Source: Ceratodon purpureus
Taxonomy: Eukaryota; Streptophyta; Bryopsida; Pseudoditrichales; Ditrichaceae
Direction: 5' to 3'
Assembly (NCBI GenBank): GCA_014871385.1
Contig: CM026421.1
Span: forward strand, 24,173,383 to 24,237,382
DNA: 64,000 bases
Below are positions 1,690-59,331 of the stretch, one piece after another. Below the pieces are notes generated by a model. That model was given only the letters and a program-made list of their open reading frames with translations, had not been told where the DNA came from and made no database searches. The translations under genes were made by a program, and so were the position numbers. Within the stretch, counting starts at the first letter, position 1. Every line of letters starts with the position of its first letter.

Positions 1690-2207
1690 GGTGGCGGGGG
1701 TATTGATGATTGGGGTTTACTGTTGAGCTTCTTCATTTTCTCGAATCTTTCTTCTTCTTTCCCGCGAGCTTTCCCGCCGTTTAGGTTTTGGAGCTCGGTT
1801 AGGGTTCGCTTCGAAGTCTGGTTGATTAATTTTTGGAAATCCCTGCGTTGCAGCGCTGCTTGTGCTTCGAATTCTGCTTGTAATTTTGGAAACTTTCAGC
1901 GAATCAGTCTGTGTGAGTGCGAGCTTTGAGTCGGTTGTGGTGTTCTGTTTGACAATTGAAGAAGACATTGTTGGTAAGTTTTTGCGACCAGGTTTACTCT
2001 CGGGAGGTTTAGGGTGTTTTTAGATTTCATTGTTGCTGGTGATTTTGTTCATTGTTGTGCGTGTGCGTGTGCGTGGTTTGGTTGTCGGTGATTCTGAATG
2101 TTGGGTTCTGGGTTGAATTGGGTTTCGGGTTCGTTTGGGTTTCTAAATGTACAAGCTTCTGTTTCGCTGTTAGGGTTCAGGAATTCCTCTGCGGCTTAGG
2201 GTTTCGC
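1690..2207 (+). promoter_or_regulatory. Promoter/5' leader of the outer gene with two E2F-like sites
   Basis: The stretch has the CT-rich, stop-rich look of a plant 5' leader and directly precedes a very long open frame. Two close matches to the E2F consensus TTTSSCGC are visible: TTTCCCGCG at 1758-1766 and TTTCCCGCC at 1770-1778. E2F sites are known to tie genes to G1/S. That this gene is S-phase regulated is inference. No clear TATA box is visible. Confidence 0.4.
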
Positions 2208-5200: not shown

Positions 5201-5372
5201 ATATGGAGATCATTCAGCACTTGGCAATACAGCTTCTTTTTCTGTGAAGGAGAACTTCATAAGTCAGCAGTCTTTTATTGATGTGCAATTGTCTTGTCAT
5301 TTTGTAGTGTTGTTAATTTGTCATTTTCGTGATAATTACTCTCACCTCCCTGTGCCGTTGCATCTTACAGGC
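2208..5372 (+). pseudogene. 5' part of outer DDE-transposase-like gene, interrupted by an 18-kb transposon
   Basis: This is an unbroken 1055-codon frame from the ATG at 2208 (start MALRIKIYALDH; the frame is open 52 codons further upstream, but that part reads like leader). Visible parts are two Cys/His zinc-finger-like clusters (CLECNKDH at about residue 215 and CVTCNQF at about 320 with paired His after it), an AT-hook-like KRGRPS at residues 362-367, and a PIP-like QTSLHSWF at 378-385. A DDE-like core has Asp699 in EDETKV and Asp818 in SDGDSRRR, followed by a conserved-looking QDYIHNGKKL block. The pattern of an acidic DET motif, then a DG-S motif, then a D-x-x-H-x-x-K block recalls P-element-type RNase H transposases, but this family link is inference. 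The frame meets the transposon end right after codon GGC and continues at 23491. It may be an older element or a domesticated host gene. Confidence 0.7.
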
Positions 5373-5390
5373 GGGGGGAAGCATCCTAGG
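5373..5390 (+). repeat. Left terminal inverted repeat of the 18-kb transposon
   Basis: The sequence GGGGGGAAGCATCCTAGG is an exact 18-of-18 inverted match to 23469-23486. It is directly preceded by the target duplication AGGC (5369-5372). Confidence 0.9.
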
Positions 5391-6141
5391 ATGTCTAGGT
5401 AGGAACGTCACACTCTCAATTCTCCTGAATTTGTGATTTTTGACCTTCTGATTGGGTTTTTAGAAATTGATTTTTTTTTATTATTGTATTCCAGCAAGTT
5501 CCAGCACTCCTTGTATTTGCAGAATATGAAGAGATAATTTGAAATTATTGGTGTTTTGTATTCCTATGAGTTTAATTTATTAAAAAATTCAGGAATGTCA
5601 CAAGGAGAAGTCATACAGTCAGGAACTTGTTACAAGTACATGGTGTGCTAGATTTTGAGATGCATTGATTGGGTTGGAGCGTACAATCTTATGCTATTTG
5701 CTATTGTTATTTAATTGGCAGTAGTCTTGAAACTAATTTTCTAGAGAATTTTTGAAGTGGCCCCATCCTGGAATTATGAGGGCGCTGGAAGTAAGGAAAG
5801 GAAATTTAACTCTTTTTTGTATTATTCCAGTTTTGGCACCTACGTCGTTCCCTCCTCTAACGGCCTGTACTTGTTGATTGCATGCCAATGCGTTTACCTA
5901 GGAGTTAACGTCCTTTTAGAATCAGGATATAGAAAAGGAAAACGGCTCAATTCCTAAGAATTCGAGAATTCCTTGGACCATAACTTCCTTGGAAACTTTA
6001 AATCCCTGCCGTTAGATTAAGATCCAACTGCATGTCACGACACCCAGATTGGGATAGAGTCGTCTCTCTCACCGTAGCTCCTCCACTCTGACCGCGGCTG
6101 CTACTCTTGAGCGCAGTTGATGTATTCGAAGTTTTACGGGA
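5391..6141. other. Left arm of the transposon, likely promoter of gene A
   Basis: No gene is convincing; a 66-codon frame at 5757-5957 has no recognisable features. The arm has scattered AGGAAC/GGAAC motifs (for example near 5400 and 5618) like those in the right arm, which could be transposase-binding sites. The last 150 bp should contain the promoter and leader of the transposase gene. Confidence 0.4.
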
Positions 6142-9100
6142 ATGGGTTCACGACGAGGTTCGGGTAGTGCTTCACAAGCGTTGATAACCGATTTTTTTCA
6201 ACAAGAAAGAGTGACAGAACCAGAGGTTGATGAGTGGGTATTTTATCAGACGTTGATTACAGATTTCTACAGGGAGAGGGAAGAAACAGTAGAAGTCGGT
6301 CAATCATTTCCGGAGCACAGTTTCACTGATTCAGAGTTCCACAGCCTCCTGGACATAGGGCCGCAAACCCCAATCTCACAATTAAGTTTGAGATACTCAG
6401 ATTGCACTCATGTTTCCGAAACCCCTGAAACTAGAGTTGCAAGACCCAACTTCGATTTTGATTCGGAGGTTCAGTCACAGATGCGTAAATGCTTGTGGTG
6501 AGGTAAGTGTCGAATGTCTCTTTTTGAATGCCTAATGGGTTTCTTTCATATTTCATTTAATTTTGTTTTCAAAAATTTGGCAGTCTCTAATCATGACTTC
6601 CTATTTCGCAGGTACAAGGTTCGGTACCTAATCAGGAAGGAAGTTTGCTTGCGGTGGTTTAGGTATTTAGAGCTTTTAAGCCAGATTAGCGATACATAGA
6701 TAGACCAGCCTTATATAATCTGCGACAGGTTTTTGAAACGTTAATGTGGAGTACACTGAGTAGCTGGGGGTAGATACTCCACCGCTGACTCTCTTCAATA
6801 AACTATCTACTGCATTCCAATTGCCATATGATTCTGTAGAGTTGGTCGACTTCCTGTGCAGCAGGTAATTAGGAGCAGGCCTTGTGGTTGTCATCGTCAG
6901 GATAAAAATTCCAGCAAGTACGATCGTTACGTACTTTTGTTCTTTTGTAACAGTCGATAGGATGGCTCCCCGCAAAGATGATAGACGACTTGGAGAAGGT
7001 AGCAGAGCCCGATTAGCTGCTCAGGAGAACTTAGTTCTTAATAAGGAGAAAGCAACTCTCAGACAGAGGAAGTGCCGAGAGAGGAGGAAGGAGAGGTTAC
7101 AGAGGGCGTGCCAGGGTAATTTAGAGAGTGATGTCAGTGTGGTCAATATCCAAAGGTCCTCAACTCGTGCAGCAGAGAATTTAGCTGTAAGGTGGTTCCA
7201 TGACACAAGCAGTAGAGGAATAGAGTATCAAAGAGCCTTGATTCCGAAAATTCTGAAGCACACTATTTGGCGTAATGTACTCCCTAATTATTCTAACATG
7301 GAGGTAGCCCATAGTGCCGTGGCAAATATATCTCAGGGATGGCAGTATGTTAAAGGTGGTCATTCTAAAGACCAACAACGAGCCAGGAATGTGATCATTC
7401 CCATGCTTCTAAGTTCGAGTGGTATTAGCGCCAGACAGACCAGTCTTTTGACTGGAATTCACAGACGAAACTTAAAGTCGGGTTTGGTGAGGAGGCTAGC
7501 GTTAGAGTCGAAATCAGATAAAAGCCTGTGGGCGGTTTGTGGACGGCAAAGGCGAGTTGACTGTCTACCTCCCCATGTGACAAAGTTGGTAGAAGACTAC
7601 TGGACAGCAAACACCCGAATCAGTCCCAACAGAAAAGATGTCGCAAGAAAACGCATTGGCGTAAAGGAGTGGATTTACCACCCCACACATCACCTCACCG
7701 AATCTCAGGTCAGTTGATTATTCTCCCTTGTTACACATAGTGTATGGTAGAGGTAATGTCCAATCTACCAGTATATTAACTTTACAAAGAACATCGATAC
7801 ACTGACTGGTCGATGCAGTCTTTGTTACTCAGTCTCGGCCCTGAGCTATAACCAAGGAAAAGCAGTCTTTGGAAATCAAATTGGTTTTGTCTAGGCTAAC
7901 TCGCTTACACATGATTTTTTCTCCACATTTCAGGTCTTCGGTACATTTTGATTTTTCCTCGGGTTAGTTAATTAATATCATATTTTAGAAGCAATTGGAG
8001 TCGAGGTAATGCTGAACTACTAACATGTTCAGTGTGCTAATCACGAAACGATGCAGTGAGTGCAGTGACTGTTACTTTATCTCAGACCTTCAGGATCTAT
8101 AATAAACGGACAATAATCTCTGGAAATTTTAGGAACAGTTCTGTTTAGGAAATAAAGGAACAGTAATTCAAGGAACAGTAATGTCTACCTAGGAATTGAA
8201 GTTGCAAGGAGTTTAGGAACAATTATTCTAGGAATAGTAATGTCTAGGAAAAGTAATGTGTTTCCAGGAATTCAAGTCATCATTTCTAATTTTTAATAAG
8301 ATTGCCGCAAAAGAGAACTATATTGCAAAAGAATTGTTTATAAGCCCTCATCGGGTGAGGCACAGGGCGGGGGTTGTGGTCATGTATTTCAGTCCCAAGT
8401 TTCACTATATTTTCTTTCCTAATAATTCCTGTGGACGTTGACTCCTCAGCTTTCCTTCTACACGCGCTTCAGAGTAGCTCATAGTGGCGTCGAAATTGGA
8501 GTGCGCTCTTTTGAAGCACTCAAACCTTGGTTTGTGCGGAGAATGCGGGAGTTCAATTCATGCTGCTGCAGATACCACGTGCAGATGGCTGAATTGAAGG
8601 ATGCACTGAACTTCATGCGCCGTGGAACAGTGCACAAAAACTGCTCCTGCCATTGTGACGTGTGTCGACCAGAGGGTGGAGAGGGTGTTTGCAAAGCATC
8701 GGAGGTGACTTTTCACTCAGTTACGAGGCTCTGTGAAGAAGTTCTGTGCCAAAAGCATGAAGATGAAGAGTTCCATGCACTAAGTTGCATTCGGGGTGAT
8801 TGTACATTGTGTGGGGCTACGAAGTTGAAGATTTGCCCCAACGAACAATCTGAATCTACAAATGCTCTGGTTTCCTGGAAGCTGTTTGAGATGGTATTCG
8901 TCGGGAGGGGAGAAGACGGCAATGACAGGCATGCACTTCGTTTGGAGCACAAGATGACCCCACCATCTGAATTAGTTGCATCCTTGCGGTCCCACTTGGA
9001 AGAATTTTTGGTTCATAACTTTGAGGCAAAGTGGCAGGATCAACAGTTCAAGGTATGCATGGGAAACCTAAGTCCTGATGCAATTGTTTCGGTTGTAGAT

Positions 9101-10384
9101 TTCGCTGAAAACTATGCATTTAAGTGGCAGAATGAAGTTCAGTCCCAGCATTGGTTTAGTTTTCAAGTGACAATATTGGTTCATATTACATTCCGAATTC
9201 ATCCAGAATGGGATGGGTTGGATCCTGAGAATAAGATACTCACGGAGTATCACTTTTACATCAGTGATGACAAGTCGCATGATAACAATTTTGTGCAATA
9301 CTGTTTCGGGCTTCATAGAGATTTTTTGAAGGAACAAGGGTTTCTTTTCCCGGTGGAGCACATAGTCTTTTCTGATGGCTGTGCCTCACAATTCAAGTGT
9401 GCGAAGTCATTGTATTTCGTTGCCAGGTATCCTTCTCTGACAGTATCTGAAGAGCTACCCCTTGGCTGCGTGATGCAATGGAATCATTTTGGTACGGGTC
9501 ACGGTAAAGGCCAGTGGGATGGAGCAGGGGCTCACGTGAAGGAGGCACTACGCAGGGAGCAAGTTAAACCAAACGGAGTGAGACTACACAACTCCTGCGA
9601 CGTAGTGACTTTCCTTCGTGAGGCTATGAACCAGGAATATGCTGGTTATCGCAACGCCCGTAGATCTGTACATCGCTACTTCTATGACGTTAAGGAATTG
9701 GACGTTAACTTGTTCCAAGCACCGAATGCACGCACTGTAGAGGGTACTAGATCTTTTCATCAAGTTCGAAGTGTTGGGCTTGAGGGGACATCCTTGCAGG
9801 TTCGAAGACTCTCCTGCTTTTGTAGATTTTGTTTAGATGGTGGGGACGGACCATGTGACAATCTAGCTTTTGTTGAACCTTTTACGCTGATTCGGTTAGA
9901 GCCATGTGAACCGCAAGCTCTTACAAGGCGTGATAGGAGGCGACTTGATTTGCAGTCAACACAATTATATCCACGCATGACTACTCGTGAGGCACTTGCC
10001 GCCACATTGGAGGTTGGAGACCATTTTGCTGTCCTGGCAGATGATGGATCCGGCTACCCTGAATTTTGGATTCTTCAATGTCAAGAGCCTCTACACGGTG
10101 TCCAGGAAGATGTGATGGAAGATACCTGGGGTCAATCAGTTTATCGTGGAGAGCAAATTGTTATAGGTACCTACTACAAGCAAAGGGGCAGCAGTCGTTC
10201 TTCATACGTCAGAGAAGATCCACAACGACCTGCTTTCATTTATTCTCACTTGGTGGTCGCTACGAAATTCGATCTTCCAGTAGCCACACATCGCCAGAAA
10301 GGAGGACGAGGAGGTACACAGGTGTACAAGCTCACAGCTGAGGCGCAGGAGCATATTCATTCTCAGCTCCTGGTTCTGGACTAG
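6142..10384 (+). CDS. Gene A: DDE transposase with two PIP boxes and a C-terminal BAH-like domain
   Basis: My splice model is 6142-6497, 6612-6662, 6961-7708 and 8450-10384, all with GT-AG edges and consistent phase, giving about 1029 residues. The start ATG at 6142 opens a Ser/Arg-rich tail followed by QALITDFF (residues 12-19) and QTLITDFY (36-43). Both match the PCNA-binding consensus Qxx[ILM]xx[FY][FY] exactly. A basic stretch (RKCRERRKERLQR) follows in exon 3. Exon 4 carries a Cys-rich segment (SCHCDVCRP), then an RNase H-like core with candidate catalytic residues Asp602 (DFAENY), Asp694 (FSDGCASQFK) and Glu750 in the helix after HGKGQWDGAG. The last about 130 residues resemble a BAH-like module. 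The catalytic pattern FSDG-QFK…HGKG-DG is one I associate with poorly classified eukaryotic transposases. If exons 1-2 are not used, translation could begin at MAPRKDDRR (6962). The gene looks intact. Confidence 0.75.
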
Positions 10385-12012
10385 TACATTTCATGTAGTA
10401 CTCTTGTTAGAATATTTCTTAGTATTATTTTTACTTGGTACTGGTTTTTCTACGAATCTCTGAAGAGCAGGAGGTATTTTTTATTTATCTGTGTTTGAAG
10501 TTTGGTTTGGTGTAGTCACATTCGATAACTTGGGATCTACATGGTTTAGTTACGTTTGATGTACTGTTCCTAGAATTTCAGTTGGTCAAAGGATTAGTAA
10601 TGAAAGATCGACCCAGGAACTTGAAAATGTTGTTATTTTACGGATCATTGTATTTGGGATCAAATTGTACAAAATGATATCTGTCGCTAACTGTTTTCAA
10701 AGTAATATCGTGTGAATGAATTTGGATGAAATTCAGATGATTTAGATGTTCATATAACCCGGCTATATCTGCAAGTTCATTCCATCGACAATATTTGGTG
10801 AAACTATATATTCCACAACAATAGTAATACATTGGAACCAGCCCAGATCCTCAGAAAATCAGAATATGTGTCATCATGCGGTTGGCTAATAAATAGTATG
10901 TTCCCTCAAATAGTAATAATGATGGATAATAGAAGAAGAATAAAAAATGTACTCGATGAGATCACATTATCCTATGTTAAATAAATATATAATTAAAAGA
11001 ATTCTTAAGTTATAACACGTGTCAAAATAAGATTGGGTAGTAAAATGAGGTACAATGTAACTGACAGGATTGCATGTTGTTACGGGGCGTTTATTCAAGG
11101 TTTAGTAATTTCAGTGTATACATAAAGGAAAGGACATGGCCAAACGTTCAAGGAAATAAATTTCAGGGTAGCTTGAAATCCTAGGAAATGGGCGATTCCT
11201 CAAACATTGCTCATTATTTACAAATACTAACCATTGTTAACGATGTACTAAATTTCACTAAAAAGGATATTTGTCAATTTCAATGTAATATCTCTTTTAT
11301 AACTTCCCTAGATTTTGAATATTCCCAAAAAAGGGATTTGTGCCAACAGTTATGTGAGATTCGTTCTCCTTTCTTCCTAGATTCTGGAACATATGTTTTT
11401 AATTTTTTATTAAAAATATAGTTTTCTCTTTCACACACGAGTTTATGTTGAGAAAATAAAAAAACGTTTCAAAAAGGTCCCCACAACTGGACTTCTGACA
11501 CAACTCCGATTTAATTTTGAATTGTGTCATGCTGGAGCCGGTCCCCGCCTAGTCTGGGGCGAGGTACGTCACTCCACTCGATTTCTCTCGTCCCAGCTCT
11601 GAACTGGGACTCGGTTGCCAACTGACGAGGGTGTAAAAGTAAATGAATCCTTTTATTACCGCGCCTAGGTGTCCCAACTAACGATATGGGATAACTACGT
11701 ATAATCCTCAGTAAACTTTGCCCTCGCCAATGTATCATGGGTATCCAACAGGTATCGACGGGTACATCCTGGTTACCGCAGTAGTACCAACTATGTTGGT
11801 GCCATGGTACCGAGAAGGAGGGAGGCCCGGTTAATAACCACCTGATGCACAGGTGCTGTTGGATCGATGCCCAAGTATCACTAGTTTGATGCCCCGTTAA
11901 TACTACCATGATGTACTCTCTCTCCTCTGTTTATTATTTCATATCTTAGCCATACCAATTCTGACACTTCTATTTTTAATTATATTTGTTTTTTTACTTT
12001 ACCTTAAATATA
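10385..12012. other. Non-coding spacer with an unclassified GC-richer island at 11470-11930
   Basis: This is the 3' flank of gene A. Most is AT-rich. The block at about 11470-11930 is distinctly richer in G and C, and its minus strand is open for 132 codons, but the predicted product is Trp/His-rich with no domain logic. It may be an inserted repeat; I could not find its ends or family. Confidence 0.35.
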
Positions 12013-12960
12013 GGATGTCACCCTTGAGCGAGTATATTCTTCCACCTACATTACTATTTCAAGAAAGATTCCATTTGTTGGTCAATCTAATTAGGACACG
12101 TGTTTTTTTTTTTTTTAATATAATCTTAAATATATAATGTCACCCTTGAGCAAGTTTATTCTTCCACCTACATTACTATTTCAAGAAAGATTCTATTTGT
12201 TGGTCAATCTAATTAGGACACGTGTTTTTTTTATTTTAATTTTATCTTAAATATATGATGTCACCCTTGAGCGAGTATATTCTTCCACCTAGATTACTAT
12301 TTCAAGAAAGATTCCATTTGTTGGTCAATCTAATTATGACACATGTTTTTTTTATTTTAATTTTATCTTAAATATATGATGTCACCCTTGAGCCAGTATA
12401 TTCTTCCACCTACATTACTATTTCAAGAAAGATTCTATTTGTTGGTCAATCTAACTATGACACATGTTTTTTTTTTTTTTTTTAAATTTTATCTTAAATA
12501 TATGATGTCACCCTTGAGCAAGTTTATTCTTCCACCTACATTACTATTTCAAGAAAGATTCCATTTGTTGGTCAATCAAATTAGGACACGTGTTATTTTT
12601 TTTTATAAATTTTATCTTAAATATATGATGTCACCCTTGAGCGAGTATATTCTTCCACCTACATTACTATTTCAAGAAAGATTCCATTTGTTGGTCAACC
12701 TAATGAGGACACGTGTTTTTTTTTCTTTTTCTTTTTTTTTTAAATTTTTATCTTAAATATATGATGTCACCCTTGAGCGAGTATATTCTTCCACCTACAT
12801 TACTAGTTCAAGTAAGATTCCATTTCTTGATCAATCTAATTAGGACACGTGTTATATTATTTTATTTTTTTATTGTACCTTAAAAATATGATGTCTCCGT
12901 TGAGCCATTATATTCTTTATATACTATCCACCTGTATTAGTATGGGTGGTTTTTTTTTTC
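12013..12960. repeat. Eight-copy tandem array of about 122-bp units with G-boxes
   Basis: Units begin near 12014, 12136, 12257, 12378, 12504, 12627, 12763 and 12890, so spacing is 121-136 bp, varying mainly through a T/A-rich tract. Each starts with GATGTCACCCTTGAGC-like sequence, runs through TTCTTCCACCTACATTACTA, and ends at GGACACGTG before the T tract. CACGTG is present in five copies, is CACATG in two, and is lost in the most diverged last copy. The array lies between gene A and gene B, upstream of gene B's likely promoter. A role as an enhancer or transposase-binding array is inference. Confidence 0.9.
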
Positions 12961-13099
12961 TTTATTTGTTTGGTAATTTAATAATGACATGTTTTAAAAG
13001 TATTACTTTATGTGTTATACTTTTATAAACCCCTGAAGTTGTGACATTACTTCAGATACAATACTTGAGAATATGAAAGAAGCATTCCCTTAACAATCT

Positions 13100-13300
13100 T
13101 TGATGAAATTGATGGTGTGAAATGGATAAAGTCGGAGTGAGTTATTTGGTTTCGGTTTCCCGCCTAGATACTCTACAATCAAGGCTTGCCAGCTGTTTTC
13201 CCGCTACAGCTGCACGAATCCAACCATGCCACGTATTTTCCCGGCAAATTTTCTCGAGAAGTCCCCTGCCTACATGGCGTTTAGGGTTTCAGTTCAGCCG
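13100..13300 (+). promoter_or_regulatory. Probable promoter region of gene B with E2F-like sites
   Basis: Within about 100 bp there are TTTCCCGCC (near 13157), TTTTCCCGC (near 13196) and a weaker TTTTCCCGG (near 13238). The first matches the E2F-like site in the outer gene leader. The region stands between the G-box array and the first plausible exons of gene B. Exact transcription start is not visible. Confidence 0.35.
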
Positions 13301-13973
13301 TTGGTCTTCCTTCTCGCCCATCACTCTTTCGTTTTGGATAGATCTGTTTTTGCGAGGTTTTCCACCGTAGAGGGGTTTCACAGTCTTGTTCGTTTCGTTG
13401 TGCATGTTTGTTAGGGGCCTGTGGATATGGTTCAGGATTATGGAAACCGCTAGATGAGTGAAGTACATTGGGGCGGATTTCTGAGCAAGGTTTAGTCTGC
13501 ACCTAGAAGCAAATTCTCCTCGTGTTTCCTCTGCGGCAGATTCTGTGGAGAATGGGTCTTCCAGAACCCTACGAGTCTGTGGAGATGTATCGCTATAGGA
13601 ATAACCCAGTTTATTTCTTCGTAGGAGTGTTTGAATTGTGGGATCCTCATTAGAATCTGAGTCAGCACAAGATCCTCCAAGGAACTACTTGTTTTGGGTT
13701 TTAAAAACGTATTCAAATGGATGTGACACCTTTGGTGTCGGCAGCCATTAGTGGGAGTTGACATTGTAGATGTCGGCGGCCATTAATCTCTCCTCGTCAT
13801 TCTTTGTACAAGGGTTATTAAGTCATCCTGAATTCTATAGTACTCGTCTCCCTCCCGAGCAAGCTCTTGGATTCTAAGGGCTCTTGTTATTCTTTAGAGT
13901 TTCCAGAGTTGCTACTTAGAATGAGCTTCTATCCTAGACTTGTTGCGCTGTTTGAGAAGCTTGTTTAGTATAG

Positions 13974-16900
13974 GTGGGAGACAGTTTGTGCATTCAAGGA
14001 GTGGGTGGGGGTGTTGGAGTTCCTGTGGGCCTTGGCTGTACCGTGGACGTGGGTTCCAGTGTCGTTGGTTTAGTAGGAAGGAGTTGTTTTGCCTTAGAAG
14101 GTTCATTGCAAGAAAACGAGTTCTTGGAGCACAACTGGGACGGGGGGTACGAGGAGCTCAGGTACCTGCTGCCACCTTCAGGGGATCAGGTTCTTAATCA
14201 CGTCCACCTTTTTCTGAATTCCAATTCAATATTGCCGTGACAGCTCTCTTCAAGGTTGCAATCAGTTTGAAGTCTTGGTTGAATTCTGCTTTCAGTTATG
14301 TTTACATACATTAAATCCGTGAAAACCCGTGTTCTTGCAAGCCGCTAGTAGTATCCTGCTTTCCAGTGCTGTGTGTTACTTGATTAGTCGTGTTTCTGAT
14401 TTTGTCTTTTGGAACAATGAATGTCTAATCCTTAGGGGGGTACGAGGAGCTCAGGTACCTGCTGCCACCTTCAGGGGATCAGGTTCTTAATCACGTCCAC
14501 CTTTTTCTGAATTCCAATTCAATATTGCCGTGACAGCTCTCTTCAAGGTTGCAATCAGTTTGAAGTCTTGGTTGAATTCTGCTTTCAGTTATGTTTACAT
14601 ACATTAAATCCGTGAAAACCCGTGTTCTTGCAAGCCGCTAGTAGTATCCTGCTTTCCAGTGCTGTGTGTTACTTGATTAGTCGTGTTTCTGATTTTGTCT
14701 TTTGGAACAATGAATGTCTAATCCTTAGGGGGGTACGAGGAGCTCAGGTACCTGCTGCCACCTTCAACGAATCAGGTAGTAAATCACGTCCATCTTCACC
14801 TGACTTCCAAATGTACATTACTCGTGACTGCCCCCTTGGTTGTAATCTGTTTGGTGACATTGGTCGAATGCTGTCTTTCCCTACATTGAATCAGACTTTG
14901 TTTTACTTGATCACTCGTGTCTATGTTTATGTCTTTTAAAACAAACAGTGTCTATGCCTTATGACTGTCCCTTCAAAATTATGAATGTAGGAACTATCAT
15001 TCCTTTTCTACAGTGGGAGTTGGCTTTCAATTCTGATTCGAATTTACTGAAGACTGGTCCTTTGATGTGTTTGGTGATAGTTACAGTCCTCATTTACAGG
15101 AAGCTCGCTCTGAATGCAAGGACTTGCTCCGACAATACTTACTTGGAGGTACAATGCAGGTTATCCAGCACCACCTTAGAGAAGGAAGTTTATATCTACG
15201 GCATTTGATCTCCTATGGGTGAGGTAAGTCCTTTTCCTCACAATTTCCTTGTTCATCAATGGTATCCTTTCCAGTTTTAATGAGACTATTGGTTAGGTTC
15301 ACCATCCTTTCACATGTCTTCCTTGTCCATGTGTAGTCTACGTCAAAGGACTATGAAGTTGAATTCAGGAGATTATGCTCCTTTTTCAAGTAATTCATTA
15401 TGACTTAATTCCTTTTCTATTGCTTAGGGTTCAGGGTGAGAAACTGAATTTCAGGAATGACAAAGACCAACTCCTACTGTCAAAGACTTCAAGGATCATA
15501 GACGGTGAGTCTTGCACGGGCCTGTCCTCCTCCTGTTTTAATTTTACTTACATGTTCCTTAATTCTTGATGTGCTTTCTTGTTTTCCTTGTATTCTCTCG
15601 GCTCTTGTCACCTCCTTTCAATACTATACTTGCTTTTGGATCCTTGTTCCTGACCATATATACTGTTTTCCTTTTCCTAGCTATGTAGTTATACTATCGT
15701 AGGAGATACTTTTATCGGGTCCTGGTTCCTAGACATAGGTATCATACTTTTATACTGTATCTAGATACTGTTTTCGAGTCCTGGTTCCTGAATTTAGTTG
15801 CTTTCGTACTTGTTTCCACTCCTTGTTCCTTGTCCTACATACTTTCATGCGGGTTTTCCGGTCCTTGTCCTATAATTCTTATTTGATTACTTGTTTTGTT
15901 TCCAGTCCTTGTTCCTTGTCCTACATACTTTCATGCGGGTTTTCCGGTCCTTGTCCTTTAATTCTTATTTAATTACTTGTTTTGTCTATTATTGTTCTTG
16001 AAAACAGGTATGACAATGGACTTGAAGGTTTTCTACTACGGGGAGAAGGGCTGGTTCAAGTATGTGACAAGGCTGAATGGTGATGGGCTCATCCCTGGAT
16101 CTACCCTCACTGAGGAGCATGTTAGCAAGGAGCAATGCAAAGAAATGTTTGTGTATGGAGGACGGCAATCAAACAATGGTTACAGAACCAACCTCTGGAC
16201 TTCGTTTTTCAATGAGAGAGTTTCATGGCTATGGATTCGAGTTCATCAACAAGAGAAGCCAGCCAACAATGACTTCGGACTCAGCTTCGCCCAAGGTCTG
16301 CTTCACGAATACAAGACCAATGAGGAAGTAGATTGGGCAGGTTTTGCTGCTCGCACTGTGAACCGTTTCAATCGAACGAAGGGAGTGAATCAGGTTCATC
16401 CGCTCTGGGCTTGGGCACATCCCTCAGTTGTGATTGACGTTGGCAGTGGTCTCCCTGTTCAGACAGACTACAAATTCCCCGTGGCTCCAGGCTCTAGACC
16501 TGTTCGGTGTACAATGGCCACCACATTACCCATGGTAAGACCCTAAGATACGGTTTTTTTAAATCTAATTATTTTCAAGCATTTGTTAGTTTATTTCCTC
16601 CTTGTGTGCTCACATTTGTCTAAGGATTCCAATTTGTTTTTCTGCAGCGGTTACCGATATTGGAGACTGAACAGGGCACACGCAAAGGCAAGCGTGAGAG
16701 ATCTCCATCTGCTGAAGATTCTGACTGGGACAGAGAGAATGAGAGAAGAAGGAAAAGATATAGAACCAGATCACAAGTGAAGTACGAGAGCCCTCTACAG
16801 AAATTGGAACACGTGGCAGGATCTTCAACTGGGGCCGATGGGTCTTCTTCGATGTCTATGGGTGCAGAACTTCTCCAAACTCTTTCTACGTCAGAGCCCA

Positions 16901-17637
16901 AGACACAGCCCAAGCCCATATCCGATTCAGCACTGGATTCGCTGGCCAACACGGACTCAATCCCGGGATCAGCTCGAAGAAGTCTGGTGATGGCGTCGGA
17001 TCAGGCTCCAAGCTGCAAGCCAAAGGAAGAAGATGCTAAAGACCTCGCCGGGTATCCAGAACTTCAACTCATTTTCTGAATCTATTCATGCACACATTCA
17101 CCACTATATGTTGACTTTGTTTTCTAAAGTATATTTTTTGTTTGATGTATTGAATTTCCGCACATTAGGATCCTTTCCTCTAATGTAAGTGTTTTATTTT
17201 TATCCAGACCCTCTGATCCTTCAAGAATCCCAAGCAGTGGACCGAATACAGAGAAGGTTTTGGCGGCACTTCGCCACTTTGGAGCGGTAATACCAAAAGT
17301 GGTTGAGAGTGTAATTTCAAACCTCGATTTGCAAAAGAAGGAGTTGCAGCAGGCGTATGTCGTTGCACAAGAGTTTACTTCATCTGCAAACAGTGCTAGG
17401 GCTGAACTCTCTACACAGCTTGAGAAGGCAAGACTAGCAACACGTGGAAATCCCAGTGACGAAGTTCAAGGTGAAGTCCGATATCTTGAGTGTGGATTGA
17501 AGTATGCGGAAGGGAGAGTGGAGACTGCAGTTGCTAAAGAAAGAGAGGCCCTGCTAGCATTTCAAGCCCACTGCACGAAATTGGAAGACATGCGGAAGGA
17601 CCAGTGGGTACTAGAGGAGTATTTCATTTTCAAGTAA
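13974..17637 (+). CDS. Gene B: multi-exon accessory protein with coiled coil, paralogous to gene C
   Basis: The 3' exons are clear and phase-consistent: 15100-15218, 15428-15504, 16008-16534, 16648-17051 and 17208-17637 (stop TAA). They give about 518 residues. The exon at 16008 encodes a compact domain (start MTMDLKVFYYGEKGWFKY; later LTEEHVSKEQ and VDWAGFAARTVNRF). Next come a charged Ser/Arg linker (KGKRERSPSAEDSDWDRE) and a C-terminal coiled coil of about 120 residues. The 5' part is uncertain: an open stretch ending at 14189 encodes EEFL-type sequence finishing NWDGGYEELRYLLPP, and it is partly duplicated twice downstream. No ATG is obvious for it, so the true first exon may lie between 13270 and 13974. 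I do not recognise the domain. Its order and residues resemble gene C on the opposite strand, suggesting a duplicated accessory factor of the element. Confidence 0.6.
14148..14776 (+). repeat. 293-bp tandem duplication containing an exon and intron of gene B
   Basis: The unit 14148-14440 is repeated at 14441-14733 with no difference that I can find, and a third copy begins at 14734 but diverges after about 35 bp. The unit starts at TACGAGGAGCTCAGGTACC and ends in a G6 run, which is also the junction with the unique left side. Each copy contains a short exon-like segment ending …GATCAG|GT or …AATCAG|GT, and the later copies have an upstream CTTAG acceptor. Because 293 is not a multiple of three and the exon copies are 47 nt, only some copies can be used in one mRNA. 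Confidence 0.9.
15821..15992 (+). repeat. 86-bp direct tandem duplication in an intron of gene B
   Basis: Two near-identical copies start at 15821 and 15907 with CCTTGTTCCTTGTCC and include ATGCGGGTTTTCCGG. They differ at only a few positions. The motif GTTCC (complement GGAAC), common through the element, recurs in both. Confidence 0.85.
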
Positions 17638-19022
17638 ACCAAAGCCATTCCTACAAATTCAGGTCTATTCCTTCCATGGGCATCATGTTTATGTATTGAT
17701 GCCTTAATTGTCAATTATTTCTTTCTTTATGATGATATGTGTTTAACATTCTGAAAATTGCTTTGCAGTTCAGTGCTCGTGTGAAGGCCGAAGACTAAGG
17801 CAATCCCTAGAAATCGGGACATGGTGCACAGTTGGTGCATGCGTCGTATTGTTGTGTTACAGTTCTCTTCTAGTTTCGGTGTATAGTGTATAACGGATGC
17901 TATCTTTTTCATTTCTGGTTCCTTGTTATCTATGATTAGTACAGTGTGAGGACTGTGCATATTAGCTCACATGTAATGACCCTGAACCTAGGAATTCAGT
18001 TACAGTATTCAGTGAATATTATGAATTCACATACACTATCAATATTGTCATTTGTTTGTAAAAGTTTATGCTTACCAAAAATTCGTAAGAAGACCCTCGT
18101 TGATTGTGTCTTATCAAGTCCAGATGTAGGTTTGGTTGTAGGATCCTCAGTGGTTTTTTCATTGTCGAGCTTATTTAATTTCTCCTGCAAGAGTCTGCGA
18201 TTTTGAATTTGTTCCAGTTCGTACTTTTAGACTGACGATGAACCGAGACTTCTACTTAGGGTGCTATAAGCATAACTTCTGACATACTCTTGTAAATCAC
18301 AACCTAGTATGTAAATGAATGGTATTCTTATCTGGTTGCACAATAGTCATTGTATTGATGGAGTGTGCGAGCATTATATTTTGAGTAGAAGCGCGGTTGT
18401 CTTTCAGCAGCTCTGTGAACAGTATCCTATACACAAATAAGTTTCCAATTGACTTAGGAAGATCAAAATTATTCGACACCAAAGTTTCCAACTCCCTAGT
18501 CTAGTGTAGTAGCAAAGTCGTTCCTGTACAGAATCTCCATTATCATTGCAATCCTTTATTCCATTTGTGTGATGCTTACGAGATTGGTTAGGAATCGAAA
18601 CTTCTCAACTAAAAAAAATAGTATTTTAAATATTTGGCGATTCAGTATTCGGCCACAGTCCTATGGAGATATGACCAGCTTGGAAGCTATGATATGTAAA
18701 TGTGACAACCTTGCGGTCATACCACATTCCTTTGGGGAACTAATCAATATAACGGACTTGACCCTGATGGCCATTCTTATAAAAACAAATGATACAATTC
18801 TAGACTCCCGTTTGAATGCACGGAATGAGGAAAACTTAGATCATATTAATTACATATATCCTACACCAACAGCATCCAACACCACCAAGTTCAATATAAT
18901 TATGCTTCAACAAAAACAAATAATCATCAAGAAGGGACCACAGAAATAATATAATGAACTTGATTGCTGAATGCGTAGTTTACAGAACAAACTAAATCAT
19001 ATTCAATTCTTATTTCCAAATC
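17638..19022. other. Convergent spacer between gene B and gene C
   Basis: After gene B the sequence contains a possible last small exon (acceptor near 17768), then AT-rich non-coding sequence. Apart from the LRR-like fragments listed separately, I see no gene. The two genes converge here, so both 3' ends should lie in this spacer. Confidence 0.4.
18420..18765. pseudogene. Two short NLR-type leucine-rich-repeat fragments
   Basis: On the plus strand about 18645-18765 encodes GDMTSLEAMICKCDNLAVIP followed by HSFGELINITDLTL. This is the spacing of plant NBS-LRR leucine-rich repeats (SLE-x-L-x-x-C-x-NL…IP-x-S-x-G-x-L-x-x-L). On the minus strand about 18420-18500 encodes LETLVSNNFDLPKSIGNL, again LRR-like. 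The two pieces lie in opposite orientation and have no continuous gene around them. They look like host resistance-gene debris captured by the transposon. Each is short, so the match could be chance. Confidence 0.35.
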
Positions 19023-20046
19023 CTACACTCTATCCTTCCCTCCTCTCGTTCTTCCGGAATGTTTTCCACCTGAGGATGATGGGGGAGAGATGTCTGCAAG
19101 CAATTTCATTACCTCCTTGTGTTGACCACCTTGCCCTTTCAACCTTGTGGATCTTTGAGCTGTGGTACTTGATACAGGGTTCTTCCTTTTCCCACGAGAA
19201 GGTTGGACTTCTTTTGACCCTTCTTGCTCAACCTCGTCTCCTTCTAATGGGGTCCCTATTGGATCAAGATCGAATTCACCTGTTCCACCTCTACCGTGTT
19301 CCTTACAGGACACTACAGCTCCCTGGTCAGTTTCAGTTGGCCCTAAATGCGGCCCAAGTTCATCGTTATGAACTTCCTCAGCAGACCCCTCCTCATCTGG
19401 ACTGGTGTCAGTGGCCTGTTTATCATTTGATTCTTTTTCTGGGATGTTGTTAGGAACGGGTTCCTGCTCAGTATCCTCTTGAGTAGAACTACTCGCCAAT
19501 AACCGCTTCGGTTTATTCAAAACTGTGGTAGGCACCGGCTGGATAAATTCAGCCTCATCTTCTGATGTGTCATCCGAATCTGATGATAGATCTGGTTCTT
19601 GTCCACCAAAAATTTCCATACCATTTCCACTCTTCCTTGGACAAGGATTTGATCGACCAGTCTTCTCGTCAACTTCAGGGTCAATAGCACAGTTGAATGC
19701 ACTTCCAAGTGCTAACGGAGCTAATTGCGGTACAAGCTTTGAATCCCTGGCTCCATCAACAATGTCTTGACAGGTCGGACAAAGGAATATGTCACCTGCA
19801 CATCCCTTACAAACGCCAGAATGCCCACAAGGCTGCCAAAAGAATTGCAGAAGTATCAGTAAATTATATTGGAGTGAAGATAATTTAATTAGTAAAAATG
19901 TTTGCAGAATTTATATAACATCTCAAGTAAAGCTGGAAGGTAAGTTACAGCACCTGCAAAGTAACACGGAGATTGCCTGGTCGCTTGCATACTAAACACT
20001 CCTCCATATCATCCGAGCCTTGTGAATCATCATTAACATGGGCCAT
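19023..20046 (-). CDS. C-terminal RING-HC module of gene C (or separate RING gene)
   Basis: The exons are 20046-19954 and 19832-19023 (minus strand, GT-AG). From ATG 20046 they give 300 residues. The N-terminal 50 residues form a clean C3HC4-type RING: CLVC…LQPCGHSGVCKGCAGD…CPTC. The rest is acidic, Ser/Thr/Glu-rich and ends in a basic tail (SGRTRGGKDRV). RING proteins of this spacing are usually ubiquitin ligases. Upstream, the same frame is open back through 14 codons to the TAG at 20089 that ends the 600-residue gene C frame. The simplest reading is that both are one protein of about 915 residues split by that TAG; a separate gene starting at 20046 is the alternative. Confidence 0.6.
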
Positions 20047-20088
20047 GGCTTCTTGTGATGATTGGCTGCAGTTGCTACGGTAAATGTC

Positions 20089-22996
20089 CTACTCACTCTT
20101 CTGTTCACAATCGAATTGTAACCCGTCAATAGACCGTGATTTCTCAGTGCCCCTTCTGATTATGTCTGCTTTCCCAGAGCTCACGGGTGTGCCTGTATGT
20201 ATTCGATATGTCTGACTAGGTCTGCTTGCTTCAGAAGTATCACCCAAAGATATTCCATCACCTGAAATCACCAAATGAAATGCACAACAAGATCAGTGGA
20301 CATAGAACATCGGGAAACAATTATGTATACAGGAAACTGAATTCTTGAACAAGGAATACATTCCTTAAAAAATGAACCGATATCCTTGATTAGGACACAC
20401 AGCAGGAACTTTTAGGACTAATAGTAGAGTGTTGAGTCACGGACTTACAGGACTAGGAGTAGAGTGGTAAGGGTGATACTTAAGGAACATAATCTAAAAG
20501 GAGTAGTAAGAGGACCAAGGACCTTATACACTTATTCCTAAATAAATATCCTAGCGTATCTGTTGTACCAGGAATGAATAAATCTACAAAAGGAAAGGTA
20601 AAAGTATACAGGAAAAAATCCTCGGCTATTCGGTCTAACAGTAATATAGACTCTAAAGACAGTCCTGAAAGAAAGTCATAGAGCATATAGGAGCAGGAAG
20701 ACAGTATTCGGTAAGGAAAGCCAAAATGCTATGCAGGAAGTTAGTTCCTAAATCCAGACTCTGATTCCTAGGACGCAAGGAAGTAATAAAATAAAAACAA
20801 AGGAAAGTATGTCCAGACAGCTGTGTCCAGAGTCTCCTTTTTAACAAAGGAAGAGGAAATTCATCAGGAAAGACGTAATAAAATAAAGACAAACAAGAGG
20901 ACTGTGTTCAAATGGCTATGTCCAGAGTCTCCTATTTAACAAAGGAAAAGGAAACAAATCAGGACGTGGGATAACAGCTCAGAACTAGGAAAAACCGTAA
21001 ACAAGCAGAGTAGGAAATAGAAGTAGAACTCGGTAATTGCCATAGGAAACATGAACATCGTAGGCTAATCTAGTGCTGTCTCCAAGGAGTCTCAGTAATC
21101 TATGGAAAAAATTATGAGCACCTTCCTATTCAACTGAAAGGAGACATAAAATTCAACCCTAAACTTAATCAATAATTCAATGTTAAAACAACCCACAAAA
21201 ATGAAAAATCTGCCAGGTCCGTGTTTTCCTCGTAGAATAGAATAGAAATCTTACCAGACATTCCACCAGAGATCGGACTGCCTTGGGTGACATCAGGAGT
21301 TGGCACAGAGGAGGGGGGTTGAGGAAAACCCCACGATAATCTCCATTCGGGGTCAAATTCCTTGTCACAGAACTCTTCAATACACAAATTTGACTTTGAA
21401 GAGTGACTGATTAGACAGAAGGGGTGATAGCAATGGCCGCATGAAGTCACAGCAATATCGTTGCAATGAAAGTCTTCACCACAAACTGGGCAGTTTTCTA
21501 CATACAGAATATTACTCTCTCTATGGAATTCCTTCGGCCTCTGTATTGGGGAGGGACTAAATCTATGTACAGTACCATACTTCAACAACCCCAGGTAATT
21601 GACAACTAAATGTTGGAACTGCTCCATGCAAGCTTGACTACAAAATACAGAATTGTACCTCTTTGTGCATGTTTCCATGCTTTCAGCTAAACGAGCACAC
21701 TGAGTCTCTATTTCTTCTAATTTTAGAAGGGCGTGCTTACTGTTTCGTTCCTCTAAACGCAACTGATCCTCTAATCCAGAAATCCTAACTGCAACGGAGT
21801 CATCTGAAGAGGAAGTCGGGTTACAGTGGGAAAGATTAGGAGAAGAGTGGGCAGGACTAGAGTAGATAGGATTACTAGGAACTCCTTCGTCTGGACAAGT
21901 CGTCCACATATCAACGTACTGACTGGCACTTTCTAACGCAGCCTTGACCTTTAGAACTTCAGATTGAGCAAACTCGGCAATGGATTTTCTATCACTGCAC
22001 ATTATCTTGGCTCTTCGAAGATCCAACTCTCTCTCCTCCTTCTCTAAGCTCAAAACCCTCAACCGCTCCTTTGTTGCTATGAATCCTACCTGGGCACTAG
22101 CCAGTAGACACTGGACTCTCTCAATGGTCTTGACATTACTTTCCTTAACGCTACTCAGACCAAGTTCATGCTTCACGACACCCTTACCACGCTTACTGGA
22201 GGAAAGGGAATCCATCCTAGGCCGCAAATTAGGTGTTGGTGGCAGCCGTGGACGGTTGCTATCAATTGGTAGAGACGGCAGAGAGACACCTGGCGGTTCA
22301 CTAAAGCCTGAACCTCGCTCCAGAGTGATCGTAGGAGAACTAGGAGGCTCAGATAAATCACCCTCCAAGGATACAGAGCGTAGGGCTTCTTTACTGCTCA
22401 CGCCAGATTCGGGGAGTTGAAGTTTCCTAGTGTGAGGTGAACGAAGCTGCTCTGCCCTTGCTCTCCTGCTGTCCTCGAGGGCTCGCCGTTTGCTGTAAGC
22501 AGCTACTGCATAAGCGGCCCAGTTAACTTGTATTTCCTTGATCTCCGCCACAACTCCACGAGCAAATTCCAGGGAAATTGTGTCATTTAACACAGACTCT
22601 CTTCTGAAAACACGGCGGTAGAGATCTTTTATTTGGCGCTGAACCTCAGGTGAAACGTTCCTGGTAATCTTCCAACCATTCTTATCGAACCTTGGCCCCA
22701 AAACATCCTCAATTTCTTGAAGGGAAACATCACTCTCAGTGAGGGATTTCACTGGACGGCCTTTACCTCGCAATCCCTGCCTATTCACGAAAAAATGAAG
22801 GTTGTACACCACCTGCAAAGACAAAGTTCGGACGAGAAATTAGATAAGCAACATTGTTGTTCCCGCCGTCAACCCTAAATCCTAAACCATAGCTATCTCC
22901 AAGCAAAACACTTCCAAAAAATACTTGCAGCCAAAGCATCGAAGACAGAGAAGCCACGGTGTGAGATATGAAGTTCTGGTGTCCTACCGCAGCCAT
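20089..22996 (-). CDS. Gene C: coiled-coil, zinc-binding accessory protein of the transposon
   Basis: The minus-strand exons are 22996-22925, 22812-21255 and 20261-20089. Phase is consistent and the product is 600 residues (start MAAVGHQNFISHTV). Residues about 40-150 form a compact domain (LTESDVSLQEI…VNWAAYAVAAYSKR). A Ser/Pro-rich linker, a coiled coil of about 100 residues and a second helix follow. Then comes a Cys/His cluster, CPVCGEDFHCND…CGHCYHPFCL…CDKEFDPEW, a degenerate RING-like zinc site. The N domain, linker and coiled coil parallel gene B, so I infer a duplicated gene. The frame ends at TAG (20091-20089) but stays open beyond it into a RING module. Function is unknown. Given its place in the element, an accessory role in transposition or host-protein turnover is possible. 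Confidence 0.65.
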
Positions 22997-23468
22997 TGAA
23001 ATACAAGACAGCCGACAATCAAAACAAAGGGAAATCGAAAGAGCGTGCAATCAACAGAATCGAAGTGAGGAGAATATACGACAATTTGATTACCTAAGAC
23101 ATACATATTTCGATTCCTAAAAGACGTTGCGAAAATTCTGAGAGCCAGTACGCCGTAGGCGGAGAGACGATGGAGAACAACTTCTAATTCGGAGAGACGA
23201 TGGGCAACTTTTGGAGAGACGGTTGCAACATCAGAACTTTTGGAGAGACGATAGCCTAAAGCTCTCTAAGAGAGTAGGGGAAAAATCCGAATACAAAGGG
23301 ACAGGGGGCATGCGAAGGAACGGGGTATGCGAAGGAACAGAGATCAAGCGAACCACTTTCCTGTTAAACCGACCAATAAGATAATTACGAATTTCAAGGA
23401 ACAAATAATTCCAAATATTACATCAGGGATACTTTGATTCCTTGGTCCTTGGTTCCTAGTGGTACCAC
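22997..23468. other. Right arm of the transposon, upstream of gene C
   Basis: This holds gene C's leader and promoter on the minus strand and the right subterminal zone. A short tandem of GGAGAGACGATGG-like units lies at about 23160-23265, and a GCATGCGAAGGAACGG-like pair at about 23305-23340. GGAAC/GTTCC motifs cluster near the end, and a perfect palindrome GTGGTACCAC (23459-23468) abuts the right TIR. Confidence 0.5.
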
Positions 23469-23486
23469 CCTAGGATGCTTCCCCCC
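23469..23486 (-). repeat. Right terminal inverted repeat of the 18-kb transposon
   Basis: The sequence CCTAGGATGCTTCCCCCC is the exact reverse complement of 5373-5390. It is followed at once by the target duplication AGGC (23487-23490). Confidence 0.9.
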
Positions 23487-23490
23487 AGGC

Positions 23491-24798
23491 AGCGATTCAT
23501 GCGAGATCTTTTTCAGTAAGATAGGGGGAATGGTTGGCTTAGAGCGTGCGTATGATTTTCACGAGCTTGTAAATACAGCTAATACAGTAAACATATTAGC
23601 GGCAGTGGAGTATGGGGCTAATGGTCTGAAATTTAATCGGGTCCATAACAAAATGACGAACGTGTGGGCTGATTTGCATCCGTTGGCAGCAGAAGAGTCT
23701 CCATGCGACCTGGGGAACTATTCCCTCATTTCTACTAATGATGATGTGATTGCAGCACTAAAAGAAGGGTTGAAAGAGGCTCAGCGTCTTCTACGGGCTC
23801 TCAACATGGGTCCTCGTCCTGGTGCAAACGCTCAAAGCTCACGGTGGTTCAGCAGTCCCTGGACTTGTGAGTTGGCAGACCCGAGGCACTTTGCTTTTGT
23901 GCCGAACAAAAAACCAGTTGAAGGTGAGGATGGCGACTCGGAGGTAATGCGTGAGATCACAACCTTGCTCGACCGTGAAGAAGTGGAATCTGACGAGGAA
24001 GGCGAGGATGAAACAGGGCCGGAGAATGATCAAGTCGATGAGCAAGACGGATTGCCCTGTACTGTTGAGCAGGAGACCCGGGATGTGATCACTGAGCTCC
24101 TAAACGAGTCGGAGGAGCAGATCAGAACACCTGCAGTGAGCGTGAAGATACTTCCCTATGTCATGTATGCTGGGAAAACCATCTACAAATCCACATTGGT
24201 GTCTCAGTTGAATGCAAACCCGTTCCTTTCGAAGGATCGACTGACACGAGTGAAGAATTCAATATTTTTCAACAACGCTGATGACTACCTAAGTGCCGCC
24301 TCATCGAATTCGAAGATGCTGATAGGCTGTGGCAGCGACTGTGGCATCTACTTCTTAGGTGCAGGATTACCACAACGTTCCTCAACTGTGACCACTGCTT
24401 AGAAACGAACCAGGGGAAAACAGTCGCGAGGTATTGCACCAGTCAGAGTATCCCAAGCGGTGGAGGAGGGATCTTGGTGGATAGGCCGGGTGCAAAGGAT
24501 CAGAAGACGCAAAGGACGAGGTTATGGTATTCTCAAACATCCAATTGACTTGATGAATCTGCCATCGTCAACCGGGAAGAAAGGAGCTTCGGAGTCTGGC
24601 ATCCAGATTTACTTGAACTATTATTCGAGGGGCCCGGGTCGACTCAAATTCAGGTATGATCTCAGTGACTCCAATTGGGTGGACGTAGAGTCCATTATAT
24701 CAAGTGTAGCGTTGACGTATACTTCTGCTACGAAAATGTACAGCCTGGATTCAGAAGATGCAAGTTCTTTTGATACCTTCGTTTCCAACAAAAACTGA
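23491..24798 (+). pseudogene. 3' part of the outer DDE-transposase-like gene
   Basis: The frame resumes with SDSCEIFFSKIGGM directly after the target duplication, in the frame that ended at 5372. It stays open to a TAG at 24400-24402 and then continues in the same frame to TGA at 24796-24798. The first 303 codons carry a helical domain (MVGLERAYDFHELVNT) and an acidic linker. The 132 codons after the TAG look coding: a basic KRTRGKQSRG, then WWIGRVQRIRRRKGRG and a beta-rich segment like the BAH-like C terminus of gene A. I therefore read the TAG as a nonsense change in a protein of about 1490 codons. An original C terminus at 24402 is possible but explains the downstream coding pattern less well. 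Confidence 0.65.
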
Positions 24799-24838: not shown

Positions 24839-25021
24839 GGATTCAGTACAGTCCGTTTGCAGGACTGGTTTTGCGTAGGAGTTGTTAGGAGAAGCTGATT
24901 TTAACGTAGCAGATTCGTAGCAGATTCATGGGATTCAGTACAGTGCGAGAGCAGGACTGGTTTTGCGTAGGAGTTGTTAGGAGAAGCTGATTTACTGTAG
25001 CAAATTCGTAGCAGATTCATG
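24839..25021 (+). repeat. 92-bp direct tandem duplication after the outer gene
   Basis: Copy one (24839-24930) and copy two (24931-25021) both begin GGATTCAGTACAGT and share GCAGGACTGGTTTTGCG, differing at about ten positions. It lies in the likely 3' flank of the outer gene. Confidence 0.85.

Positions 25022-25481: not shown

Positions 25482-25523
<42 letters not shown>

Positions 25524-59287: not shown

Positions 59288-59331
<44 letters not shown>

Follow-up and report, generated by a model that had tools for sequence, protein, structure and literature searches.

A DNA transposon of 18.1 kb is inserted in an open reading frame (ORF) of Ceratodon purpureus, at positions 5373-23486 of the 64,000 nt analysed here (assembly GCA_014871385.1, contig CM026421.1, 24,173,383-24,237,382; this whole stretch is called the window, and all positions refer to it). 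The insertion is confirmed by the ends of the element, by the duplicated target site and by the reading frame that it interrupts. Judged from its sequence features, the element is probably a giant, apparently autonomous cut-and-paste transposon of the Sola type, for which a Sola1-like affiliation fits best.

The terminal inverted repeats (TIRs) are 18 bp long, with GGGGGGAAGCATCCTAGG at 5373-5390 on the forward strand and at 23469-23486 on the reverse strand, and match each other at 18/18 positions. They are flanked by the target-site duplication AGGC at 5369-5372 and 23487-23490. The two termini are the sole matches to this 18-mer in the window at up to three mismatches (expected 0 from 100 shuffles), and they form the only perfect inverted pair of 18-mers more than 1 kb apart, with identical outer tetranucleotides adjoining them. 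Chance is excluded by the length of the TIRs and not by the duplication alone, since matching outer tetranucleotides also occur in 5 of the 846 inverted 12-bp pairs more than 500 bp apart, the element termini among these. The left part of the disrupted ORF extends from 2043 to 5372 on the forward strand, with its first ATG at 2208 and 1,055 codons from there to the insertion, and the right part from 23491 to the in-frame TAG at 24400-24402. The empty site rebuilt from both parts (2043-5372 joined to 23491-24402) has 1,413 open codons followed by one terminal stop; given the window-wide frequency of stop triplets, 304 open codons would arise by chance with a probability of ~1e-7, and 1,110 with ~6e-26. 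A preliminary description of this DNA had reported perfect 18-bp inverted ends flanked by AGGC and a frame shared across the insertion; both are confirmed, and its picture of a large DNA transposon that interrupts an open reading frame, has precise ends and carries several probably spliced genes is supported.

A search of the window flanks with the element (blastn, E values up to 1e-3) gave no second copy of any of its parts. This single copy is what would speak for ends paired by chance or an assembly artefact, with no insertion at all, an explanation that we regard as most improbable in view of the unique 18-bp pair with its duplication and the exactness with which the host frame closes. The claim that the boundaries are secure to the base did not hold at the right edge, which is ambiguous by one base. 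The base preceding AGGC is C at both junctions, and therefore a 5-bp duplication, CAGGC, is possible, the element then being one base shorter at the right. The 4-bp boundaries are favoured, as they give symmetric ends and the simpler solution. The insertion is probably recent, as suggested by the perfect ends and duplication, the unbroken host frame and the open transposase frame; the earlier claim of a recent event is reasonable on these grounds.

The predicted transposase gene (6962-10384, forward strand) has two exons, taken from the forward ORFs 6869-7717 and 8426-10384, and would encode 893 amino acids before its stop codon. Exon 1 (6962-7708) gives a basic N-terminus with the look, by eye, of a helix-turn-helix, and ends at the donor CAG/GTCAGT at 7709, which scores well (8.5; the cuts used were 5.5 for donors and 5 for acceptors). 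The acceptor before exon 2 (8450-10384) was picked by frame and by eye and scores 4.2, below the cut. Exon 2 would encode a Cys/His region, a core with the aspartates D466/D558/D606 and a C-terminal tail, and has a homologue outside the window. This homologue, at a locus here called L007, is one of two stretches obtained when genome contigs were scanned for the pattern HGKGxxDGxGxxVK. It comprises 690 amino acids from its Met in a single open frame (ORF 990-3107, reverse strand), which is the sole sizeable ORF on a 4-kb contig. This contig is listed as belonging to a metagenome-assembled bacterium; it is probably eukaryotic DNA in that assembly, and an animal, perhaps a sponge, is suspected as its source.

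Exon 2 matches L007 with a tblastn E value of 1.17e-16 (calculated for a set of only 7 loci) and 30% identity over 212 columns, and the Smith-Waterman score of transposase against homologue is 192, compared with at best 60 in 300 shuffles. The alignment conserves VDFxEN, FSDGxxSQFK and HGKGxxDGxGxxVK, and three aspartates are invariant between the two sequences, D466/D558/D606 corresponding to D366/D446/D487 of the L007 protein (P0007). The residues between them number 91 and 47 in the element and 79 and 40 in P0007. Exon 1 shows marginal likeness to the N-terminus of the homologue (score 56, reached by 3/500 shuffles). From sequence we infer that the 893-aa protein is the transposase and that the three aspartates are catalytic.

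Further searches for relatives added nothing to this pair. Pattern scans of viral contigs gave 8, 33 and 2 stretches, with no transposase relative among them, and the viral contigs hold 0 matches to the 18-bp end; the stretches from two further scans (3 and 2) were set aside, their best tblastn E value being ~1 and the ORFs of L004 and L005 having been read. Among the assembly of L007 and two more genomes of its phylum, one of three matched, this being L007 itself. Plasmids searched with P0007 at E values up to 0.01 gave no match, and a search for peptide strings gave no open-licence paper.

Sola elements, first reported in 2009 and described in the available part of PMC10741241, have a DDD transposase (catalytic triad of three aspartates), 4-bp target-site duplications and TIRs of 11-1,124 bp; most measure 2-9 kb and some more than 15 kb, and they are present in moss and seemingly uncommon in flowering plants. 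The present element has a 4-bp duplication, AGGC (or a 5-bp one if its ends are taken as asymmetric), and its perfect TIRs of 18 bp exceed the lower limit of 11 bp. Membership of Sola is likely because of the 4-bp duplication, the D-D-D order, the short ends and the size above 15 kb, the yardstick being described traits. The D-D-D order itself is seen in two sequences, those of the element and of L007.

Several observations weigh against this assignment and the gene models behind it. The element is known from a single copy, within the 64-kb window. The exons were modelled from reading frame and splice-site consensus, with scores below the cuts at three of the sites used. Neither the transposase nor its homologue has a significant match in Pfam, NCBIfam or the PDB: the best PDB E values are 0.86 for exon 2 and 5.7 for a profile of the two sequences, the best Pfam match (E 0.042, P0007) lies below its cut-off, and no match in Pfam or NCBIfam names Sola. 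Structure predictions are of low confidence, with a mean pLDDT (predicted local distance difference test) of 33.0 for one sequence and 32.4 for two, so that an RNase H fold is unsupported. Finally, the AT-rich 4-bp target of the Sola2 group (AWWT in the available part of PMC3627910) is not what is seen here, namely AGGC in one copy.

Two of these observations speak for a giant cut-and-paste transposon of some other or undescribed superfamily that also makes duplications of 4 bp, such as an Academ-, CMC/Chapaev- or Ginger-like one, which we consider possible but doubtful. No library names the transposase, and AGGC is unlike the AT-rich Sola2 targets. The ends of CMC elements begin with CAC and those of Ginger elements with TG, and both groups are disfavoured because the ends found here begin with GGGGGG. 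The D-D-D order and the size above 15 kb fit Sola instead. Kolobok and piggyBac were rejected, as they use TTAA, according to the part of PMC9587614 available, whereas the target here is AGGC. Somewhat less probable still is a non-autonomous or composite cargo element, in which the transposase would be inactive and the other genes captured from the host. The element may have grown by accretion, to judge from its tandem arrays and long stretches of noncoding DNA, and in published giant families extra genes often accompany a transposase that is predicted to be pseudogenised (PMC12477816, as far as available), which would be in line with such an origin. However, no stop interrupts the 893 codons of the transposase model, its three aspartates are retained, and accessory genes 2 and 3, described below, resemble each other, as expected of genes that belong to the element.

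A short ORF of 119 amino acids (6142-6501, forward strand) lies upstream of the transposase and has two motif matches to the PIP box, a PCNA-binding motif: QALITDFF (6175-6198) and QTLITDFY (6247-6270). The PIP box has the form QXX-hydrophobic-XX-aromatic-aromatic, and a PIP-box sequence in the pogo transposase is also mentioned (PMC4103810, available part). When the 119-aa peptide was shuffled 100,000 times, at least one PIP box was obtained in 2.5% and at least two in 0.03%. An in-frame splice from 6497 to 6901 would join this ORF to the N-terminus of the transposase, giving a protein of 1,032 amino acids, but a stronger donor lies directly behind the stop codon of the ORF, so that by sequence the ORF may just as well encode a peptide of its own as form an N-terminal exon.

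Three accessory genes were predicted from frame and splice consensus, and with the transposase gene they make four models, every one of them predicted, in agreement with the earlier mention of at least three spliced genes. Gene 2 (16010-16534, 16648-17051 and 17208-17637, forward strand) would encode 452 amino acids; its donor at 17052 is weak (4.5, cut 5.5) and was picked by phase. Gene 3 (22812-21255 and 20261-20089, reverse strand) would encode 576 amino acids, its start not having been found; it has a RING-H2-like Cys/His cluster at about 21492-21355, with weak RING matches in Pfam (E 0.15 and 0.28), and by eye the look of a coiled coil. Gene 4 (20046-19954 and 19832-19023, reverse strand) would encode 300 amino acids with a C3HC4 RING pattern, an acidic middle and a basic tail. 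Its donor at 19953 is also weak (4.5, cut 5.5) and was chosen because the splice completes the C3HC4 pattern. Read as an open frame by itself, its exon 2 matches PF13920 with E 1.6e-5 and 25.1 bits, below the cut-off of 27. Among ten further ORFs of the element no Pfam match reached its cut-off, the best being Kelch in exon 1 of gene 2 (E 0.0073).

Genes 2 and 3 are likely to be related, as judged by alignment scores. Their open frames give a Smith-Waterman score of 99 (best of 300 shuffles, 55) and their spliced models one of 96 (best of 500 shuffles, 74); BLASTP reports the pair at 3e-6 among seven sequences (E values up to 10), whereas it is absent in the pairwise comparison at E values up to 1. 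The likeness lies in the N-terminal regions and the tails are unlike (33 vs a shuffle best of 66). It is also possible that gene 3 shares a segment with the transposase, downstream of the third aspartate of the latter: the score of 69 exceeds the best of 300 shuffles (56) and, narrowly, the best of two sets of 1,000 (63 and 62), and BLASTP gives 4e-4 in one setting, while in another only a different match of 23 residues appears (E 0.42). In the same kind of comparison with shuffles, no likeness was found between gene 2 and the transposase, or between L007 and genes 2 and 3.

A short dispersed motif is a further feature of the element. When k-mers of the element were compared with those of the rest of the window, with four tandem arrays masked, the most enriched 7-mer was CTAGGAA, present 14 times inside the element and 0 times outside, while dinucleotide shuffles of the element held a mean of 2.6 and a maximum of 8 (300 shuffles). 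The wider form YWAGGAA occurs at 52 sites in the element, compared with 11 in the remaining 45,886 bases of the window, and at 50 with the arrays removed (shuffle mean 12.5, maximum 24; 200 shuffles). In the flanks the motif is found 11 times at the right (shuffle mean 29) and 0 times at the left. Predicted coding sequence covers 39% of the element but holds only nine of the 52 sites (p = 0.0007), the other 43 lying outside it; it weighs against this enrichment that YWAGGAA was selected and counted in one and the same data set, the p value and the shuffle tests being uncorrected for that choice. The densest cluster (8129-8422) is in the predicted transposase intron, with sites at 8129, 8145, 8169, 8189, 8213, 8228, 8244 and 8416, the intron holding nine sites in all (7853-8416). 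Eight sites, two of them within a tandem array, lie at 15245-15912, and nine (20350-20985) form a second cluster at 20350-20991, within the intron predicted for gene 3. Clusters are also found near the element ends, at 5792-5985 and 23114-23453.

Such a layout, a short motif dense in noncoding element DNA and rare elsewhere ("elsewhere" being the remainder of this window), recalls that of VANDAL21 in Arabidopsis, where, according to the available part of PMC5735166, the 9-base motif bound by VANC21 is concentrated in noncoding parts of the element and often lies in tandem repeats. Extending this analogy, the element may be envisaged as a Sola-type giant with its own sequence-guided control system, independent of VANDAL, in which proteins 2 and 3 would bind the noncoding YWAGGAA sites, bring RING ubiquitin ligases and undo silencing, while the PIP boxes would couple transposition to replication via PCNA. 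We offer this as a speculation that is unlikely to be right. A simpler interpretation is that the sites are plain binding sites of the transposase, of the sort found in many cut-and-paste elements, with no role in silencing; we consider it evenly balanced between right and wrong. L007, whose only ORF of size is that of the transposase, has eight matches to GTGTTGGACRTACA at up to two mismatches, four at 301-692 and four at 3256-3460, which flank the ORF, none being inside it (0.05 expected; reached by 0/200 shuffles). These sites are candidate binding sites or ends of the L007 element and suggest, by analogy, that short-motif arrays accompany this kind of transposase. Because L007 has motif repeats beside its transposase ORF, YWAGGAA is perhaps bound by the transposase rather than by accessory proteins, and sites near the right end of the present element (23395, 23438 and 23453) are in line with this. 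On the other hand, most YWAGGAA sites lie in introns and intergenic DNA, well away from both ends, and the L007 count is itself post hoc, GTGTTGGACRTACA having been picked from the list of inverted repeats of L007.

For the Sola-type element as a whole, the following course of events would be consistent with the data. A DDD transposase would recognise the 18-bp G-rich ends, excise the element and join it to the target via a staggered cut, the filling-in of which would give the 4-bp duplication (AGGC). The YWAGGAA sites might serve as binding sites for the transposase, or else for accessory proteins 2 and 3, while RING-type proteins might keep the element expressed or act on the excision complex; in both these steps our confidence is low. 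The efficiency of cut-and-paste elements falls with length (PMC6431247, available part), and the role of the extra genes comes into question because this giant element keeps an open transposase frame even though length costs efficiency. A candidate answer lies in the 52-fold, mostly noncoding motif, the mutually alike accessory proteins and the RING-type proteins. If YWAGGAA is the address for accessory proteins, it would represent a second origin of the VANC-like strategy in a different superfamily, VANDAL21 being a Mutator-type element. If it is the address for the transposase, it would show by what means a Sola-like transposase locates an element of this length.

Other features of the element include three tandem arrays, with periods of 121 bp (11985-12917, 7.5 copies), 293 bp (14142-14810, 2.3 copies, copies 1 and 2 identical) and 86 bp (15810-15985, 2 copies). 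The middle of a 149-aa ORF (18500-18949, forward strand) resembles by eye a leucine-rich-repeat fragment and has no Pfam match at E values up to 1; the ORF is possibly a captured host fragment.

The preliminary description had placed the insertion inside an open coding exon. An open reading frame is indeed present, but its status as a cellular gene is unsupported, as neither part matches Pfam or NCBIfam at E values up to 1. Motifs such as GHxSDGDxRR and QDxxHxGKKL are reminiscent of a transposase, and the element may thus sit within a second mobile gene. When viral contigs were scanned for such motifs, 14 stretches were obtained, of which 0/14 had a tblastn match to the disrupted ORF, and around the ORF the inverted exact matches between outer ends are of at most 12 bases, none convincing. 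After the TAG at 24400-24402 the same frame is open again to 24795 (24403-24795, 131 codons), and this TAG may mark damage to the disrupted gene, or its end. Beyond the frame lies a pair of 63-bp repeats, 92 bp apart (24839-24901 and 24931-24993). Five of ten downstream ORFs in the window match Pfam: a chlorophyll a/b-binding-family fragment, an aconitase-family fragment, a dihydrouridine synthase in two pieces and a RING protein. These matches indicate that the window is from a photosynthetic eukaryote. The window also holds two tRNA genes, a tandem array with a 22-bp period (417-755, 15.5 copies) and homopolymer runs of 38 C (25485-25522) and 40 T (59292-59331).

Giant size and accessory genes are already known from other elements, as far as the published accounts are available, and are not new here. 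EnSpm elements have ends that differ from those of the present element. The giant EnSpm of the red alga Chondrus (16-20 kb, 4-5 ORFs; PMC6431247, available part) is alike in size and gene number, although of another superfamily. An 18-kb element with at least three spliced genes and a G-rich end had been called unusual, which stands for flowering plants but not for Sola, where elements above 15 kb are on record (PMC10741241) and a 21.5-kb Sola-1 element has an accessory gene (PMC12477816), both as far as available. The latter, Sola1-1_Ec32, belongs to the giant KDZ, EnSpm and Sola-1 elements described from the Ectocarpus genome in the same source. It is alike in being giant (21.5 vs 18.1 kb) and in combining a transposase with an accessory gene on the opposite strand; its accessory protein, however, has ParB-like and DNA-methyltransferase domains, and no such Pfam domain was found in the element ORFs searched. 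The accessory genes here are RING-type or of unknown fold, and the host is taken as green. Among the open-licence papers listed, in the parts available, none described RING accessory genes, PIP boxes or a dispersed motif for an element of the Sola type.

Sola elements are also named for the moss Physcomitrella (PMC9033089, PMC10741241; available parts). By description, they share with the present element the superfamily traits of a 4-bp duplication and a DDD transposase (the latter putative here) and a host of the green lineage, whereas most Sola elements, at 2-9 kb, are far from the 18.1 kb found here. The Sola2-Fanzor chimeras of Dictyostelium fasciculatum and Polysphondylium pallidum (PMC3627910, available part) have a transposase of 888 amino acids, compared with 893 here, and are also alike in their short TIRs (12-21 bp), 4-bp duplications and extra protein; they differ in their AT-rich targets and in the passenger, which is Fanzor1. 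With VANDAL21/VANC of Arabidopsis (PMC5735166, available part) the element has in common a short motif dense in noncoding parts, tandem repeats and extra proteins. In that system the binding by VANC has been shown experimentally and the motif is a different one, and the likeness to the Ceratodon element is one of layout only.

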